A DNA stretch of 64,000 nucleotides from Bacteroidales bacterium (GTDB taxonomy: Bacteria > Bacteroidota > Bacteroidia > Bacteroidales > JAGOPY01). The notes beneath the pieces were generated by a model that was not told the origin of the DNA, did no database searches, and worked only from the letters and a program-made list of their open reading frames with translations. Each line of letters begins with the position of its first letter. Positions within the stretch are counted from its first letter, which is position 1. Positions 1,291-60,702 of this stretch are shown in pieces. The stretch is taken from the NCBI GenBank assembly GCA_017991835.1, contig JAGOPY010000001.1, positions 335,892 to 399,891 on the forward strand, given 5' to 3'. The position numbers were made by a program, and so were the translations under genes.

Positions 1291-2369
1291 AAATTTTAAT
1301 CGACATCGGCCACCCGGGCGATTTCTACGTTTTTAAGAATACATGTCTCCTGTTGCGGGAAAAAGGCCACCGGATCCTTTTTACGGTCCGGGAAGGCGAA
1401 AATGAAACGGTCCACCTCAGGCATTACGGCTTCGATTTTGACAGCATAGGCCGGAAGAAGAGCAGTTTTATCGGGAAATTATCGGGTCTGCTGCTGTTTA
1501 CGGCCAGGATCTGCCTGGTATCGCTGAAATTCAGACCGGACCTGTACATGAGCCACGGGTCAATGTTTGCGGGGTATTCGGCCAGGCTGTTCCGGAAGCC
1601 GCACCTGGCACTGGAAGATACCGGCAACATGGAACAGATCCGGCTCAGCAAACCGGTTAGCGATGTGATCCTGTCGCCTGATGTCCTCCCGCTGGATTTC
1701 GGCCCGAAGCATATCCGTTACAGGGGATATCATGAACTGGCTTACCTGAGGCCTGAATATTTTACAGCAAATAAGGATATTTACGGATTTTTGAAGATAC
1801 CAGATGGTACGCCGTATGCCATTTTACGTTTTGTTTCATGGAGCGCCTCGCACGATATAGGGCAGAAGGGCCTTTCGGCCGAAGATAAAATCACGCTTGT
1901 AAAAATGCTAAGCCGGAAACTCCAGGTTTTTATTTCCTCTGAGCGGAACCTGGATCCGGACCTGGAGCCATACCGGATCAGTATTCCGGTGACGAAAATG
2001 CACGATGCGCTGGCATTTGCCACTATTTACATCGGTGAAGGAGCTACTATGGCGTCTGAGGCCGGTGTTCTCGGAATCCCATCCGTCTATATCAGCTCCA
2101 TCCGGATCAGCTACACCGAAGACCAGCAAAAATACGGGACGGTTTACAATTTTAGCCGGCTCGACGATGCCCTGGAAACTATTAATCTGCTTTTGGATTC
2201 GCCCGAAGCCAGGGAAAAAGTAAAGCATGGCCGAACCCATCTGCTCGTCGACAAAATTGATGTGACGGCTTTTTTTACCTGGTTTATTGAAAATTATCCC
2301 GAAAGTGCCGAAATAATGAAACAAAATCCTGATTTTCAGAATCATTTTATAGGATCGTTTCATTCTTAA
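1287..2369 (+). CDS. DUF354 family protein, glycosyltransferase-like
   Basis: A 360-residue member of the DUF354 group, which looks like GT-B glycosyltransferases and is common in polysaccharide clusters. The N-terminus MKILIDIGHPGDFYVFKN matches the family signature, followed by a Rossmann-type first half. The second half holds YIGEGATMASEAGVLGIPSVY near residues 250-270, a sugar-nucleotide-binding-like loop shared with UDP-GlcNAc epimerase and MurG-type folds. The start overlaps the acyltransferase stop by four bases. The exact reaction cannot be told from sequence; a glycosyl transfer or epimerase-like step in the same surface glycan is inferred. Confidence 0.8.
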   Translation: MKILIDIGHPGDFYVFKNTCLLLREKGHRILFTVREGENETVHLRHYGFDFDSIGRKKSSFIGKLSGLLLFTARICLVSLKFRPDLYMSHGSMFAGYSARLFRKPHLALEDTGNMEQIRLSKPVSDVILSPDVLPLDFGPKHIRYRGYHELAYLRPEYFTANKDIYGFLKIPDGTPYAILRFVSWSASHDIGQKGLSAEDKITLVKMLSRKLQVFISSERNLDPDLEPYRISIPVTKMHDALAFATIYIGEGATMASEAGVLGIPSVYISSIRISYTEDQQKYGTVYNFSRLDDALETINLLLDSPEAREKVKHGRTHLLVDKIDVTAFFTWFIENYPESAEIMKQNPDFQNHFIGSFHS

Positions 2370-2389
2370 ACAGATATTTCAATTACAAA

Positions 2390-3436
2390 GTGAGGGATTT
2401 TACCATTGCGGCCTATCAAAGGCTTCTCGATACACTTGTCTCCGGGAGCCACACCTTCCAGCCCTACGCCGGATTTCTCGAAAATCCCGCTCCGCGCTGC
2501 ATCATCCTCCGCCACGACGTGGAGGCGCGCTACGGGAATGCGCTGGAAATGGCAAAGATCCAGCATGAAAAAGGGATCCGCGGAACCTACTATTTCCGCT
2601 TCCTGCCGGGGCATTTCGATACCGGTATCATCCGCGAGATCGCCGCTATGGGCCACGAGATCGGCTACCATTACGACGATCTCTCCCATTGTAAAGGCAA
2701 CTATGAGAAAGCGATCAGGCGCTTCGAAAAAAACCTGGCCACCCTGCGTGAGATCGCCCCGGTCAAAACCATCTGCATGGAAGGAGCACCGTTGTCGAAG
2801 TGGGACAACCGATGGCTGTGGGGAAAGGGAGTTCAAAGTTCAAAGTTCAAAGTTCAAAGTTCACTTAATACCGCTCACCGTTCACCGTTCACCGCTCACC
2901 GCTCACCGCTCACCGCTCACAGCTCACCGTTCACCGCTCACTACTCCGACTACGGCATCATCGGCGAACCCTATTTCGACACCGACTTCTCGGATGTCTT
3001 TTACCTCACCGACACCGGCCGCAGATGGGACGGGAAAGGCAGTGTGCGGGATAAAGTTGGGCAGTTGGACAGTTGGGCAGTTGGACAATTGGACAATTGG
3101 ACAGTCGGAAGACACAACCCGGAACCCGGAACCTGGAACCCGGAACTGAAATTTCATTGCACTGCTGATATTATCGCCGCAGCCAGCGCCGGCCTGCTGC
3201 CCGACCGGATCATGTTCACGTTCCACCCGCAGCGCTGGACCGACAGGCCTTTTCCCTGGATCAAGGAGCTGGTGATGCAGAATGCGAAGAACGTAGTGAA
3301 GCGGTTGGTCGTTGGCAGGCGGTTGGCAGCCTGTCCCGGGCGAAGCGAGGGATCGAACAATCGAACAATCGAACAATCGAACAATCGAACAATCGAACAA
3401 TTGAACAATCGAACAATTGAACAATTGAACAATTGA
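2390..3436 (+). CDS. Polysaccharide deacetylase-like protein carrying in-frame short-repeat inserts
   Basis: A NodB-fold deacetylase-like protein of 348 residues with a GTG start. The core motifs are intact: ILRHDVEARYG with the catalytic Asp, GHEIGYHYDD with His-x3-His, ICMEGAPLSKWDNRW, GEPYFDTDFSDVFYLTDTGRRWDG, and MFTFHPQRWTD with the late His. Two loops are enlarged by translated tandem repeats. About 40 residues (SSKFKVQSS, TAHRSP units) sit between WLWGK and DYGIIGEP, and about 30 residues (VGQLDNW, NPEPGTW units) sit between SVRDKV and KFHCTAD. The C-terminus is a translated octamer array (NNRTIEQ units). The conserved blocks stay in one frame throughout, so the gene appears functional. 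It follows the DUF354 gene by 20 bases. Confidence 0.82.
   Translation: MRDFTIAAYQRLLDTLVSGSHTFQPYAGFLENPAPRCIILRHDVEARYGNALEMAKIQHEKGIRGTYYFRFLPGHFDTGIIREIAAMGHEIGYHYDDLSHCKGNYEKAIRRFEKNLATLREIAPVKTICMEGAPLSKWDNRWLWGKGVQSSKFKVQSSLNTAHRSPFTAHRSPLTAHSSPFTAHYSDYGIIGEPYFDTDFSDVFYLTDTGRRWDGKGSVRDKVGQLDSWAVGQLDNWTVGRHNPEPGTWNPELKFHCTADIIAAASAGLLPDRIMFTFHPQRWTDRPFPWIKELVMQNAKNVVKRLVVGRRLAACPGRSEGSNNRTIEQSNNRTIEQLNNRTIEQLNN
2831..2942 (+). repeat. Two adjacent heptamer arrays inside the deacetylase gene
   Basis: About 4.5 units of GTTCAAA are followed after a short spacer by about ten units of G(C/T)TCACC. Both have a 7-bp period and both are translated in frame within the deacetylase. The same two unit families recur elsewhere in the window, in both orientations, near 5101, 17090 and 51121. 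Confidence 0.95.
3056..3148 (+). repeat. Octamer array followed by heptamer array inside the deacetylase gene
   Basis: About six units of the 8-mer GTTGG(A/G)CA are followed by about four units of the 7-mer AACC(C/T)GG. They lie between two conserved deacetylase blocks and are translated without a stop. The octamer recurs in the FemAB gene near 5640 and the heptamer near 17420. Confidence 0.95.
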
Positions 3437-3468
3437 ACAATTGAACAATCGAACAGTTGAACAGTGAA
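3352..3468 (+). repeat. Octamer array GAACAATC/GAACAATT
   Basis: About fourteen 8-bp units. They form the last coding part of the deacetylase gene and run on to the start region of the VanZ-like gene, so they lie across the junction between the two genes. Confidence 0.95.
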
Positions 3469-5058: not shown

Positions 5059-6192
5059 ATGCTGGCAATCCGCACCGAAGGGTCCCGGTTCATGCTGCAC
5101 TCAACTTTGAACTTTGAACTGATCACCGATCCTGTCACTCTCCGAACCCTCGGCTGGGAAGCCTTTGTCGCCTCCCACCCGGAAGGGACGGTGTTCCAGT
5201 CGCCCGACATGTACGAGCTGTTCAGCCGGACGGCCAACATGAAGCCGGTGGCTGTCGGCGTGCAGGATAAAACCACGGGCAGCCTGGCGGGAATCCTTCT
5301 CGGCGTTGTGATCCGTGAGATGAAAGGGCCGCTGGGCTATTTCTCATCCCGGACAGTTGTTTACGGCGGGCCGCTGGTGGTTACGACGAGACAGGGAGAC
5401 AGGGAAAGGGTGGTGGAATTGTTGCTGGAGGAATTGATACGGCGGGTGAAGAACCGGTCAGTGTTTATCCAGTTCCGGAATTTTGCCGACCTGAAAGAAT
5501 ACCGGAAAGTCTTTTTCAGCTTCGGCTTCCGGCACCGCGACCGGCTGAACCTGCTGGTCGACACCTCCGGCCCGGAGATCGTCAGGAAAAACATGAGCCC
5601 GTCGCGCTGGCGGCAGATCAGGAAGGGGATGGGGCAGCCCGACAGTTGGACAGTTGGACAGTTGGACAGTGGGGGAAACCCTTTTGCCGAGCTCATCTCG
5701 CCTGAGAACCTGGGCCAGGTAAGGGAGTTCTACGATATCCTCCTGGATCTTTACAGGCACAAAGTGAAAAAGCCGTTGCCGGGATGGGATTTCTTTGAGT
5801 CGTTCTACCATCTTTCGGCAGAGGGTAAACTGGGGGTGATCAAACTGGTGAAATACCGGGGCCGGATCATCGGAGGCATCCTCTCACCGGTGACGCCCGG
5901 CAAAACGATTTATGAATGGTATGTCTGCGGGCTCGACCAGCAATACCGGGAAGCCCATCCCAGTGTCCTGGCCACCTGGGCGGCCATCGACCATGCCCTG
6001 CACAACGGGATACCGCAGTTTGATTTTATGGGTGTCGGAATCCCCGAGAGAGAATACGGGGTGCGGGAGTTCAAGATGCGGTTCGGGGGCAAAACGGTCA
6101 ACTACGGCCGGTTTGCACGGATCAACAACAAAACGGTTTATACCATCTCGGAGATAGGGTTCAATATCCTGTCTTTGCTGAAAAAGATCTGA
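5059..6192 (+). CDS. FemAB-like GNAT-fold aminoacyl/acyltransferase
   Basis: A 377-residue protein of the FemAB-related acyltransferase group, some of which work in exopolysaccharide loci. The features are GTVFQSPDMYELF near residue 45, KNMSPSRWRQIRKG near 178, VKYRGRIIGGILSP, and IYEWYVCGLDQQYR followed by DFMGVGIPEREYGVREFKMRFGG. The start is uncertain: Met1, or Met12 at 5092, just before a short GTTCAAA-type array that encodes LNFEL. A 34-bp octamer array is translated in frame as a DSWTVGQLDS insert after RKGMGQP. The gene is in the polysaccharide cluster. Confidence 0.78.
   Translation: MLAIRTEGSRFMLHSTLNFELITDPVTLRTLGWEAFVASHPEGTVFQSPDMYELFSRTANMKPVAVGVQDKTTGSLAGILLGVVIREMKGPLGYFSSRTVVYGGPLVVTTRQGDRERVVELLLEELIRRVKNRSVFIQFRNFADLKEYRKVFFSFGFRHRDRLNLLVDTSGPEIVRKNMSPSRWRQIRKGMGQPDSWTVGQLDSGGNPFAELISPENLGQVREFYDILLDLYRHKVKKPLPGWDFFESFYHLSAEGKLGVIKLVKYRGRIIGGILSPVTPGKTIYEWYVCGLDQQYREAHPSVLATWAAIDHALHNGIPQFDFMGVGIPEREYGVREFKMRFGGKTVNYGRFARINNKTVYTISEIGFNILSLLKKI
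5639..5672 (+). repeat. Octamer array ACAGTTGG inside the FemAB-like gene
   Basis: Four units with an 8-bp period, of the same family as the array at 3056. It encodes a hydrophilic insert between two conserved helical segments and does not break the frame. Confidence 0.92.
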
Positions 6193-16566: not shown

Positions 16567-16606
16567 CCCCGATTGTTTAACAGGCTAAAATAATCATCAT
16601 TTCCGT

Positions 16607-16614
16607 TATTTTTG
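16607..16614 (+). promoter_or_regulatory. Bacteroidota -7 box before gldH
   Basis: TATTTTTG matches TAnnTTTG. It lies so close to the first ATG that the leader would be only a few bases, which favours the second ATG, three bases on. Confidence 0.5.
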
Positions 16615-16625
16615 TTAAAAGGATA

Positions 16626-17102
16626 ATGATGAATAAATATACGCTGTTATTATTGCTTTGCATAGCCCTCCTCACCTCCTGCGGCCCCCGGAAAATCTAT
16701 GAAAAGCATTACGATATCCCCAGGATCACCTGGAGCCGTTTCGATGTCAGGACTTTCGATGTGGAGATTAAGGATATCAGCGCTTCCTATGATTTCTATA
16801 TCGCCATCCGTCATCATACCGAAATCCCGTTTAAAAATATCGAGACAAAACTGACGATCTACACCCCCTCCGGGGAGATGCGGATGAACGAGCAAAAGAT
16901 CGTCCTCCGTGATAATGAAGGTAAACTCCTGGGAAGCGGCATGGGCGACCTGTGGGATATAAAGCACCTGGCAAGGAAAGGGCTCAAATTCACCGAGAAG
17001 GGAACCTGCCGCGTCGAAATATCCAGCACCATGTCGAAAGCCGATCTGCCCGGCATCATCCAGGTGGGGCTGATCGTGGAGAAAGGGAACAGTGAACGGT
17101 GA
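16626..17102 (+). CDS. gldH: GldH-like gliding/T9SS-associated lipoprotein
   Basis: A 158-residue lipoprotein. The signal peptide ends in LLTSCGPRK, with a lipobox Cys at residue 20. The mature part matches the GldH pattern: a beta-sandwich with FYIAIRHHTEIPFKNIETKL, an internal GLKFTEKGTCRVEI segment, and the closing LPGIIQVGLIVEK. GldH is needed for gliding and T9SS function in Flavobacterium and is kept in non-gliding relatives. The start may be the second of two adjacent ATGs. The last codons (GNSER) run into the heptamer array downstream, so the 3' end has been set by repeat DNA. Confidence 0.8.
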   Translation: MMNKYTLLLLLCIALLTSCGPRKIYEKHYDIPRITWSRFDVRTFDVEIKDISASYDFYIAIRHHTEIPFKNIETKLTIYTPSGEMRMNEQKIVLRDNEGKLLGSGMGDLWDIKHLARKGLKFTEKGTCRVEISSTMSKADLPGIIQVGLIVEKGNSER

Positions 17103-17450
17103 ACAGTGAATAGTGAACAGTGAACGGTGAACGGTGAACGGTGAACGGTGAATAGTGAACAGTGAACGGTGAACGGTGAACGGTGAACGGTGAACAGTGA
17201 ATAGTGAACAGTGAACGGTGAACGGTGAACGGTGAACGGTGAACAGTGAACAGTAAATAGTGAACGGTGAACGGTGAACGGTGAACGGTGAACAGTGAAC
17301 AGTGAACAGTGAACGGTGAACGGTGAACGGTGAACAGTGAATAGTGAACAGTGAACGGTGAACGGTGAACGGTGAACGGTGAACGGTGAACAGTGAATAG
17401 TGAATTAGGAATACTGATGTAAAACCTGAAACCTGGAACCTGGAACCTGG
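17090..17450 (+). repeat. Long heptamer array GTGAACG/GTGAACA/GTGAATA, then AACCTGG units
   Basis: About 44 units with a 7-bp period fill most of the 350-base gap between gldH and ribF. Three unit variants are ordered into a higher-order pattern: blocks of about four GTGAACG, then GTGAACA, GTGAATA, GTGAACA, repeating roughly every seven units (49 bp). A second, shorter array of AACCTGG units begins near 17420 and reaches the ribF stop codon. No gene, promoter or spacer-like unique sequence lies within it. Confidence 0.97.
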
Positions 17451-41831: not shown

Positions 41832-42009
41832 TGGAATAAAGGTTAATAATGCAGAGTGATGAATTAACGGAATAAAGATATGTTATTCCGGAGGGAAAAG
41901 CAAGCGGTTTGAAATATAATCTGTTTCAATATCGGATCACCTGCGGTGAAGGTTCCAGATTCCAAATAACAACCTTATTACTACCAAATGACTACTTTAT
42001 GACTACTTT
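41832..42009. other. Upstream region of the protease gene, partly shared with 28.7 kb
   Basis: No gene. GGATCACCTGCGGTGAAGG followed by TTCCA (41934-41957) and CAACCTTATTACTACC match the region at 28746. Short 11-bp GACTACTTTAT repeats follow, also seen just downstream of asd near 18390. Confidence 0.7.
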
Positions 42010-42119
42010 ATGACGCTCGCGCAGCGAGCTTTTGACGCGAACAAAGTGAGCCAATGACGCGAACGTAGTGAGCTTATGACGCGAACGTAGTGAGCTTATG
42101 ACGCGAACGCAGTGAGCTT
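42010..42119 (-). repeat. 22-bp tandem repeat
   Basis: Five units of the type ATGACGCGAACGTAGTGAGC plus TT. The first unit contains the small palindrome GCTCGCGCAGCGAGC. The array ends at the stop codon of the TlpA-like gene. Two more units lie at 28813-28860. Confidence 0.92.
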
Positions 42120-59478: not shown

Positions 59479-60603
59479 CTAAACAAACACCCCCGCCGCG
59501 ATCCCGTCGGCAAACAGCTTCCCTTCTTCCGTAAGGAAATACTTCGTCCCTTCCCGGTAAAGATGATTTTTTTTGATAAATAGATGCGATTTTTTTATGA
59601 AATGATTTTCAAACTGCTCACCGAAAACATTCCGGATATGAACGGTGTCGCAGCCCCATGCCGTCCGCAGCGAGGTCATCACATATTCGTTGTAGCGCTG
59701 GTCGGTGGAAAGCACTTCTTTTTCCTCCACAGATGACTGATATTCATCCAGTTTGATGTATTGACTGATGTTGGAAACGTTCCACTGCCGCGAATGGCCG
59801 TTGAACGAATGGGCGGAAGGGCCCAGGCCGAGGTAGTGCCCGCCCAGCCAGTAAAGGCTGTTGTGCTTCGAGTAATACCCTTCCCTGGCAAAATTCGATA
59901 TCTCGTAATGGATGAAATCATTGGCTTTTGCCTGTTCCAGCAGCATTTTGAAATGCCTGACAGACAGCTCCTCATCGACCGGCGCGTATTTTCCTTTTTC
60001 GATAAGCAGGGCCAGCGGCGTTTTCTGTTCCACCGTGAGGGCATAGGCCGAAAGGTGCGGAATATCGAGTGAGAAGAAGGTTTCGAGGTTCTTTGCCCAT
60101 TTCTCCTCCGTCAACCCGGGAATGCCGTAGATCAGGTCGATGGTCAGGTTATCGAAACCCGCACGCCGGGCTGCCTCGATGGCCCGGTGCGCCTGGCCGG
60201 CGTCGTGCACCCGGTTCAGGTAGCGCAGATCATCATCGAAAAACGACTGGATCCCGATGCTCAACCGGTTGATACCGGCCTTTCTCCACTCTTCCAGCGA
60301 TGTTTCGTTAATATCATCAGGATTCGCCTCCAGTGTAATTTCCACCCCATGTTCAATGTTAAAATGCAATGCCAAATGCGCAATGCACAATGCTAAATGC
60401 GCAATGGACCAAAGGGACGGCGTTCCTCCCCCGAAATAGACCGTGTTCACCGGTTCACCCTGCAGGTAGTCCTTCCGGAGCTCCATCTCTTTTAATAGTG
60501 CCCGGGTAAACTCGTCACGCCATTTTACCGAAGCGACGGAGAAGAAATTGCAGTAGTGGCATTTCTGTTTGCAAAAAGGTATATGGATATAGATTCCAGC
60601 CAT
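59479..60603 (-). CDS. hemW: Radical SAM heme chaperone HemW
   Basis: A 374-residue HemN-like radical SAM protein, thought to handle heme rather than act as coproporphyrinogen oxidase. GIYIHIPFCKQKCHYCNFFSV holds the Cys-x3-Cys-x2-Cys cluster site. NTVYFGGGTPSLW lies near residue 56, EITLEANPDDI near 90, RLSIGIQSFFDDDLRYLNRVHDA near 115, and DLIYGIPGLTEEKW near 160. A repeat-encoded insert (SIAHLALCIAHLALHFN) sits between GGGTPSLW and EITLEAN, where relatives have only a short loop. The C-terminal HemN domain is present. Confidence 0.92.
   Translation of the reverse strand: MAGIYIHIPFCKQKCHYCNFFSVASVKWRDEFTRALLKEMELRKDYLQGEPVNTVYFGGGTPSLWSIAHLALCIAHLALHFNIEHGVEITLEANPDDINETSLEEWRKAGINRLSIGIQSFFDDDLRYLNRVHDAGQAHRAIEAARRAGFDNLTIDLIYGIPGLTEEKWAKNLETFFSLDIPHLSAYALTVEQKTPLALLIEKGKYAPVDEELSVRHFKMLLEQAKANDFIHYEISNFAREGYYSKHNSLYWLGGHYLGLGPSAHSFNGHSRQWNVSNISQYIKLDEYQSSVEEKEVLSTDQRYNEYVMTSLRTAWGCDTVHIRNVFGEQFENHFIKKSHLFIKKNHLYREGTKYFLTEEGKLFADGIAAGVFV
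60363..60406 (-). repeat. Heptamer array GCGCAAT inside hemW
   Basis: Six 7-bp units of the type GC(G/A/C)(C/A)AAT and GC(C/T)AAAT. It is translated as the AHLALCIAHLAL insert without a frame break. Confidence 0.9.
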
Positions 60604-60614
60604 TTGAAAGCGAA

Positions 60615-60702
60615 TTATCCGCGTACATCCGCCTCATCCGCGGTATCCGCGTGCTGTTGATAGAACGCGGATGACACGGATCCTGGCGGATAAACACGGA
60701 TT
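60615..60702. repeat. Imperfect palindrome with ATCCGCG words
   Basis: The left arm has repeated ATCCGCG words, and the right arm has CGCGGATGACACGGAT and ACACGGAT words. It lies in the divergent gap between hemW and the DUF362 gene. Same design as the elements at 9711 and 11717. Confidence 0.8.

Follow-up and report, generated by a model that had tools for sequence, protein, structure and literature searches.

Tandem arrays with 7- and 8-nt units lie in frame within loops of a putative CE4-like deacetylase and other enzymes of a Bacteroidales bacterium

A deacetylase-like gene with five arrays in one open frame

Tandem repeats whose unit length is not divisible by three are expected to be purged from gene interiors. 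In the locus described here, five arrays with 7- or 8-nt units occupy a single open frame of a putative polysaccharide deacetylase gene. The gene lies in a 64-kb stretch (the window) of the 437-kb contig C1 of a Bacteroidales genome. The five arrays, reported in an earlier note on this DNA, were confirmed by TRF and ORF analysis, and are located as follows (window coordinates, unless a contig is named):

2390–3436, forward strand: CE4-type polysaccharide deacetylase-like gene (ORF, homologues, CE4 fold)
2830–2863, forward strand: GTTCAAA array, 4.9 copies, 100 % match (TRF); first part of the loop B insert
2870–2941, forward strand: G(C/T)TCACC array, 10.3 copies (TRF); second part of the loop B insert
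3055–3109, forward strand: GTTGGACA array, 6.9 copies (TRF); first part of the loop C insert
3116–3146, forward strand: AACCCGG array, 4.4 copies (TRF); second part of the loop C insert
3352–3463, forward strand: GAACAATC array, 14 copies (TRF); C-terminal tail, continuing into the spacer before a VanZ-like gene

The frame is open from 2333 to 3433, with a GTG start at 2390 and a TGA stop at 3434–3436, and encodes 348 aa with the inserts included, compared to ~250–265 aa in homologues. It passes through the first four arrays and terminates within the fifth; the GAACAATC array therefore forms the C-terminal tail, as the last ~30 residues, and, continuing past the stop, also contributes to the intergenic spacer that follows. 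Directly before this array, CCTGTCCCGGGCGAAGCGAGGGA (3334–3356) is a near-palindrome resembling a dispersed repeat, and is translated within the tail. The four internal arrays span 34, 72, 55 and 31 bp, mostly not multiples of three, and the frame between them is restored by short spacers. In an alignment of 35 sequences, the conserved blocks flanking the arrays keep every invariant residue, in agreement with the earlier claim that frame is preserved across them.

Each of the two internal sites does hold a pair of unit families side by side, as had been described, but the families are not all unrelated, as a GAAC/GTTC core common to GTTCAAA, G(C/T)TCACC, AACCCGG and GAACAATC can be seen directly in the sequence. 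At a TRF score of at least 50, the window contains 12 arrays of period 7 or 8, five of them in the 638-bp region in focus, whereas 50 dinucleotide shuffles of the whole window produced none; a chance origin of the window arrays is therefore excluded.

No family was assigned to the window protein from Pfam or NCBIfam, and its identity as a deacetylase therefore rests on fold comparison. Array-free relatives matched Polysacc_deac_1 (PF01522) at 14.5–14.8 bits, below the cut-off of 23.1, and the window protein gave no match. An AlphaFold2 (AF2) model built from 35 homologues had a core with pLDDT values of 85–99, and values below 50 at residues 148–180 (the loop B insert), 223–248 (the loop C insert) and 318–332, which correspond to the array sites. 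The E-values obtained with Foldseek alone were weak (3e-3) because of the disordered inserts, and the fold was settled with VIA-align, which matched the model to PplD (Z 12.6, 175 aligned residues, rmsd 3.5) and IcaB (Z 12.0); nearly all of the best 46 rows were CE4-type deacetylases. The modelled protein has the CE4 (NodB) fold, and we classify it as CE4-like by fold only. The neighbouring genes, identified by searches and by reading their translations, encode another deacetylase, a hexapeptide transferase, a VanZ-like protein, a FemAB-like protein and a sugar transferase, which suggests a cell-surface glycan cluster.

Arrays in the same loops of homologues and in other enzymes

A deacetylase match was found in 23 of 99 genomes of related taxa, and a scan of named genomes yielded 80 loci, from throughout Bacteroidota and from a few other groups. 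We aligned 95 homologues to a model made from array-free relatives. Inserts are concentrated in three loops, designated A (following position 104), B (143–147) and C (186–194), of which the window deacetylase uses B and C, together with the C-terminus. The earlier note had proposed a homologue alignment as a check, and both loops proved short in most of the 95 sequences; a paralogue at C1:334949, ~3 kb upstream, is likewise without inserts. Counting those of 8 aa or more, there were 48 internal inserts, spread over 33 of the 95 homologues. Twenty of these were strongly periodic, with a lag of 7 in 16 and of 8 in four, and none of the 20 had a lag of 6, 9 or 12; of 746 control stretches from the deacetylase genes, 23 were equally periodic, and arrays overlap some of these 23. 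The missing multiples of three are what selection on frame alone should favour, and their absence suggests that unit length is set by the process that makes the arrays, with frame filtered afterwards.

The units in loops A, B or C differ between lineages, and include the following (locus in brackets), and more:

CAAGACA (L059)
TTTCAGG (L104)
GGGATTA (L065, L113)
CCCTATA (L084)
ACGAAGAG (L017)
CGTCCCT (L096)
TCATCGC-like (L007)

Homologues with unrelated sequence in the same loops had been named in advance as evidence against loop insertion. Such homologues exist in part, as about 15 hold other heptamer or octamer arrays at the loops used by the window deacetylase; the phenomenon is thus recurrent, and is not removed. 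In the L007 gene (genome G074; L007:1960–2050), the heptamer-like array in loop B precedes an approximate inverse complement of itself (GTGAGAGATGAG...CTCATCACTCATC), and a third array lies beyond the stop codon; among the genes compared, L007 alone has such an inverted pair in the loop. A broken deacetylase in genome G039 was considered as a case of a frame-breaking array and rejected, as ordinary mutations had broken this copy and its loops are without an array.

The deacetylase is not the single special gene that the earlier note took it for. Arrays are also carried by wecB, leuS, hemW and a FemAB-like gene on C1, including these features:

5641–5670, forward strand: GACAGTTG array, 3.8 copies; in frame within the FemAB/GNAT-like gene at 5059–6192 (QPDSWTVGQLDSGG)
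60366–60406, reverse strand: GCAATGC array in hemW (59482–60630, reverse strand); no net length change
G000:C1:321104–322447 (L052:1104–2447): wecB, whose five arrays share one frame (TIGR00236, above cut-off)

With units AAATCGA, CAGTTGGA, TCCAATCG, CAGTCGG and GAACCTGAAACCCG, wecB equals the deacetylase gene in its number of arrays. The AF2 model of WecB is disordered at two array sites, and AACAACA-type repeats occupy one of the array loops in the WecB of the distant genome G015, which is 81 % identical over the N-terminal part. In HemW the array reads SIAHLALCIAHLAL where relatives have a normal segment of helix length, and the length of the protein is unchanged; arrays can therefore replace sequence, and not just add to it. 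Plain insertion leaves this replacement unexplained, and the HemW array appears to fit templated overwriting better.

The leuS product (TIGR00396, 898 bits) is single-copy in the genome, other matches being far weaker and looking like related synthetases. Its array loop is 27 aa long, compared to 37 aa in the congeneric genome G001 and 5–11 aa in most of the other relatives, where it has no arrays. In both congeners the loop starts with a GCAGTC heptamer array, as GGCAGTC here and AGCAGTC in G001, while the second array differs, AACCCGG here versus AACTCAG in G001. This difference is mirrored genome-wide: three tandem copies of GAACCYG match 75 times here and twice in G001, and three copies of GAACTCA match 65 times in G001 and not at all here. 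The orthologous loop of an essential enzyme thus bears each species' own dialect. Three tandem copies of GTTCAAA are nearly confined to the genus, with 77 matches here, 20 in the congener and 10 in total in four of 97 other genomes; other genomes have GAACNNN sets of their own.

As a separate observation, the LeuRS array loop in L165, L166, L167 and L168 (genomes G004, G032, G021 and G054, respectively, all of the same order) contains an in-frame DUF559 (restriction-endonuclease-like) domain of 143–169 aa, confirmed for L165 and L166. Three of the four domains have inverted-repeat-like flanks (CCCTCTCC...GGAGAGGG), and the domain looks like an in-frame selfish endonuclease.

Distribution of arrays across contig C1

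C1 was taken in stretches, with genes called in this analysis from ORFs and codon usage. The contig contains 93 arrays of period 7, 8 or 14, mostly intergenic. At a TRF score of at least 50 the periods were 7 (33 arrays), 8 (22), 14 (12), 9 (one) and 12 (one), so that the 8-nt share is large. Genes are avoided: the midpoint falls within a called gene for 24 of 72 array clusters, compared to 61.4 expected (p 2.5e-23). Seventeen unit families each occur at two or more independent loci, and 65 pairs of loci share an identical unit, compared to 2.1 when units were shuffled.

Clusters were scored for the frame test without regard to frame. All seven with same-strand coding sequence on both flanks are in frame and openly read, although seven is few for such a test. 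Two frame-changing clusters were examined as possible frame breakers and rejected, as both separate different genes. None of the 16 in-gene arrays contains a stop in the orientation of the gene, and three are closed in the opposite orientation. Intergenic arrays showed no clear preference for the orientation of neighbouring genes (20 ++, 13 --, 10 +- and 5 -+, versus 71, 46, 18 and 23), with convergent gaps somewhat over-represented.

One further array of the window lies between genes:

17087–17397, forward strand: GAACGGT array, 44 copies; intergenic; gives the stop of the preceding ORF (16581–17099)

This series of 44 GAACGGT/GAACAGT copies has a 49-bp higher-order period and begins within the last codons of the preceding ORF. 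Another repeat type, of 11/22-bp arrays (ATGACTACTTT, TTATGACGCGAACGTAGTGAGC), is found at 41962–42119, and occurs elsewhere on C1 too (ACCTTATGACC).

Origin of the arrays and relation to known repeats

These results lead us to propose that dispersed STRR-like arrays probably colonize permissive loops again and again, and that selection keeps only those that are frame-neutral and stop-free. The genome would hold dispersed tandem arrays with 7- or 8-nt units, which would arise at, or be copied to, many sites, lengthen and shorten there, and be replaced by the current dialect of the species. Units would be seeded or copied from locus to locus by slippage growth together with some conversion or template-switch process. 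Arrays that harm would be removed by selection, so that survival would be mostly between genes, and in-gene survivors would be those in permissive loops or tails, with no stop in gene orientation and a net length divisible by three. The earlier suggestion that the loops tolerate insertion while frame is kept gains from the short loops of most homologues, the disordered inserts on an ordered core and the seven of seven in-frame clusters. The deacetylase would be a heavily colonized example whose core, judged from its sequence, has all conserved residues. We infer that purifying selection acts as the filter, that the inserts are near-neutral and that units are copied between loci.

Alternatively, the deacetylase gene could be a phase-variation locus, in which gain or loss of one unit toggles a surface-polysaccharide deacetylase, as with the contingency SSR loci of, for example, Haemophilus influenzae (PMC2651432). 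The likeness is a frame-shifting tandem unit within a gene that likely modifies surface glycans: units of 7 and 8 nt shift the frame, and the VanZ, FemAB-like, sugar transferase and second deacetylase neighbours suggest a surface-glycan cluster. Some change in unit copy number is likely, and in the GTTCAAA array, perfect over 4.9 copies, it would silence the deacetylase. In contrast to contingency loci, however, the arrays are tandem in mid-gene loops, mostly imperfect (87–94 % match) and net frame-neutral, they are found genome-wide and mostly between genes, and the C-terminal array would be unable to turn the enzyme on and off. In-frame arrays are also found in WecB, HemW and the essential LeuRS, where off-switching should be lethal, and because LeuRS is among the carriers we regard phase variation as improbable as a general explanation. 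The same carrier bears on whether the deacetylase is a decaying, unconstrained pseudogene that gathers arrays. Five arrays in one gene, a paralogue nearby and the broken copy in G039 would fit decay, though the loops of that copy are without arrays; the window gene retains all invariant residues with neither stop nor frameshift, and an essential enzyme carries arrays too, which makes decay an improbable account.

Misjoining of repeats into genes by the assembler would be a further source of such loci, as the genome comes from a MAG-type assembly in 26 contigs (76 % complete), repeats are a cause of breaks in assemblies, and the contig of the congener's deacetylase ends within the gene. Yet the frame is intact in every case, copies bear distinct point differences, and arrays in the same loops are found in independent assemblies (LeuRS in G001, WecB in G015 and the deacetylases of about 15 named MAGs); because these assemblies agree, an artefact is very improbable. 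Another alternative is local slippage, in which every array grew from sequence on site with no copying between loci. For correction by mismatch repair, loops of 7–8 nt are large, which counts in favour of slippage, and sequence-specific slippage could also put one unit at several loci, which counts against our preferred reading. A polymerase-slippage origin has already been proposed for heptamers (PMC4692102, PMC4679880). Local growth predicts site-specific units, however, whereas identical units at non-homologous loci are far above the shuffled expectation (65 versus 2.1 pairs) and the dialects of congeners differ genome-wide, LeuRS included. We therefore consider slippage alone unlikely, though a serious possibility. 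Tentatively, the arrays may even represent a distinct dispersing micro-repeat, in which a genome-intrinsic process writes 7- or 8-nt units of the current dialect into many loci, overwriting coding sequence (HemW), supplanting older arrays in place (LeuRS) and continually rewriting the loop peptides of essential enzymes in a species-specific manner.

On our preferred reading, that dispersed arrays colonize permissive loops and are filtered by selection, the case would combine two known things, as heptamer arrays that behave like Rickettsia palindromic elements (RPEs). STRR-like heptamers of Bacteroidetes have already been reported; TAACTGA heptamers occur in Beggiatoaceae, cyanobacteria and a few Bacteroidetes, in which nearly all sets are intergenic and one is located towards the end of a putative purC (PMC4679880). 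The arrays described here resemble cyanobacterial STRRs and TAACTGA heptamers in having tandem 7-nt units, one unit being dispersed at many loci, mainly intergenic and lineage-restricted, and in that contigs often break there. They differ in having units of both 7 and 8 nt, several dialects and in-frame positions within loops of conserved enzymes, and their host belongs to the Bacteroidales and is not a filamentous heterocystous cyanobacterium. RPEs insert into protein-coding genes without breaking the frame (Ogata et al. 2000 via PMC2635572; PMC10969869). They share with our arrays the nature of dispersed, translated repeats in frame at tolerated positions of unrelated metabolic genes, here seen in the seven coding-flanked clusters and in LeuRS, WecB and the deacetylase when compared with homologues. 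Unlike RPEs, which are palindromic elements of ~100–150 bp in defined families with a consensus, the arrays here are direct tandem repeats of 7- or 8-nt units that vary in length and conform to no fixed consensus element. The heptamer SSRs with unit GGGNATC described in Xanthomonas and Nostoc (PMC4692102) are similarly genome-wide, over-represented in non-coding DNA and variable among close relatives; they are, in contrast, G-rich and quadruplex-forming with four units preferred, and recurrent colonization of enzyme loops is not described in the available part of that source.

The earlier view that such insertion is undescribed in Bacteroidota holds in so far as we found no description of in-frame heptamer arrays in enzyme loops in Bacteroidales or Bacteroidota in the open-access literature searched; it is narrowed by the known STRR-like heptamers (PMC4679880) and by in-frame insertion of RPEs (PMC10969869). 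Here, arrays of a kind expected to be purged from genes have entered the same loops time and again in several enzymes, a single-copy aminoacyl-tRNA synthetase among them, and two species of one genus differ in them. They amount to a natural experiment in loop insertion into conserved proteins, and mark permissive sites. A caution also follows for predicted proteins, in which low-complexity stretches such as VGQLDSWTVGQLD, KSKIENRKSKIEN or NPEPGTRNPEPGT can derive from the translation of DNA repeats and need not be domains. How heptamers spread in bacterial genomes, and why the unit is 7 or 8 nt, becomes a testable question.
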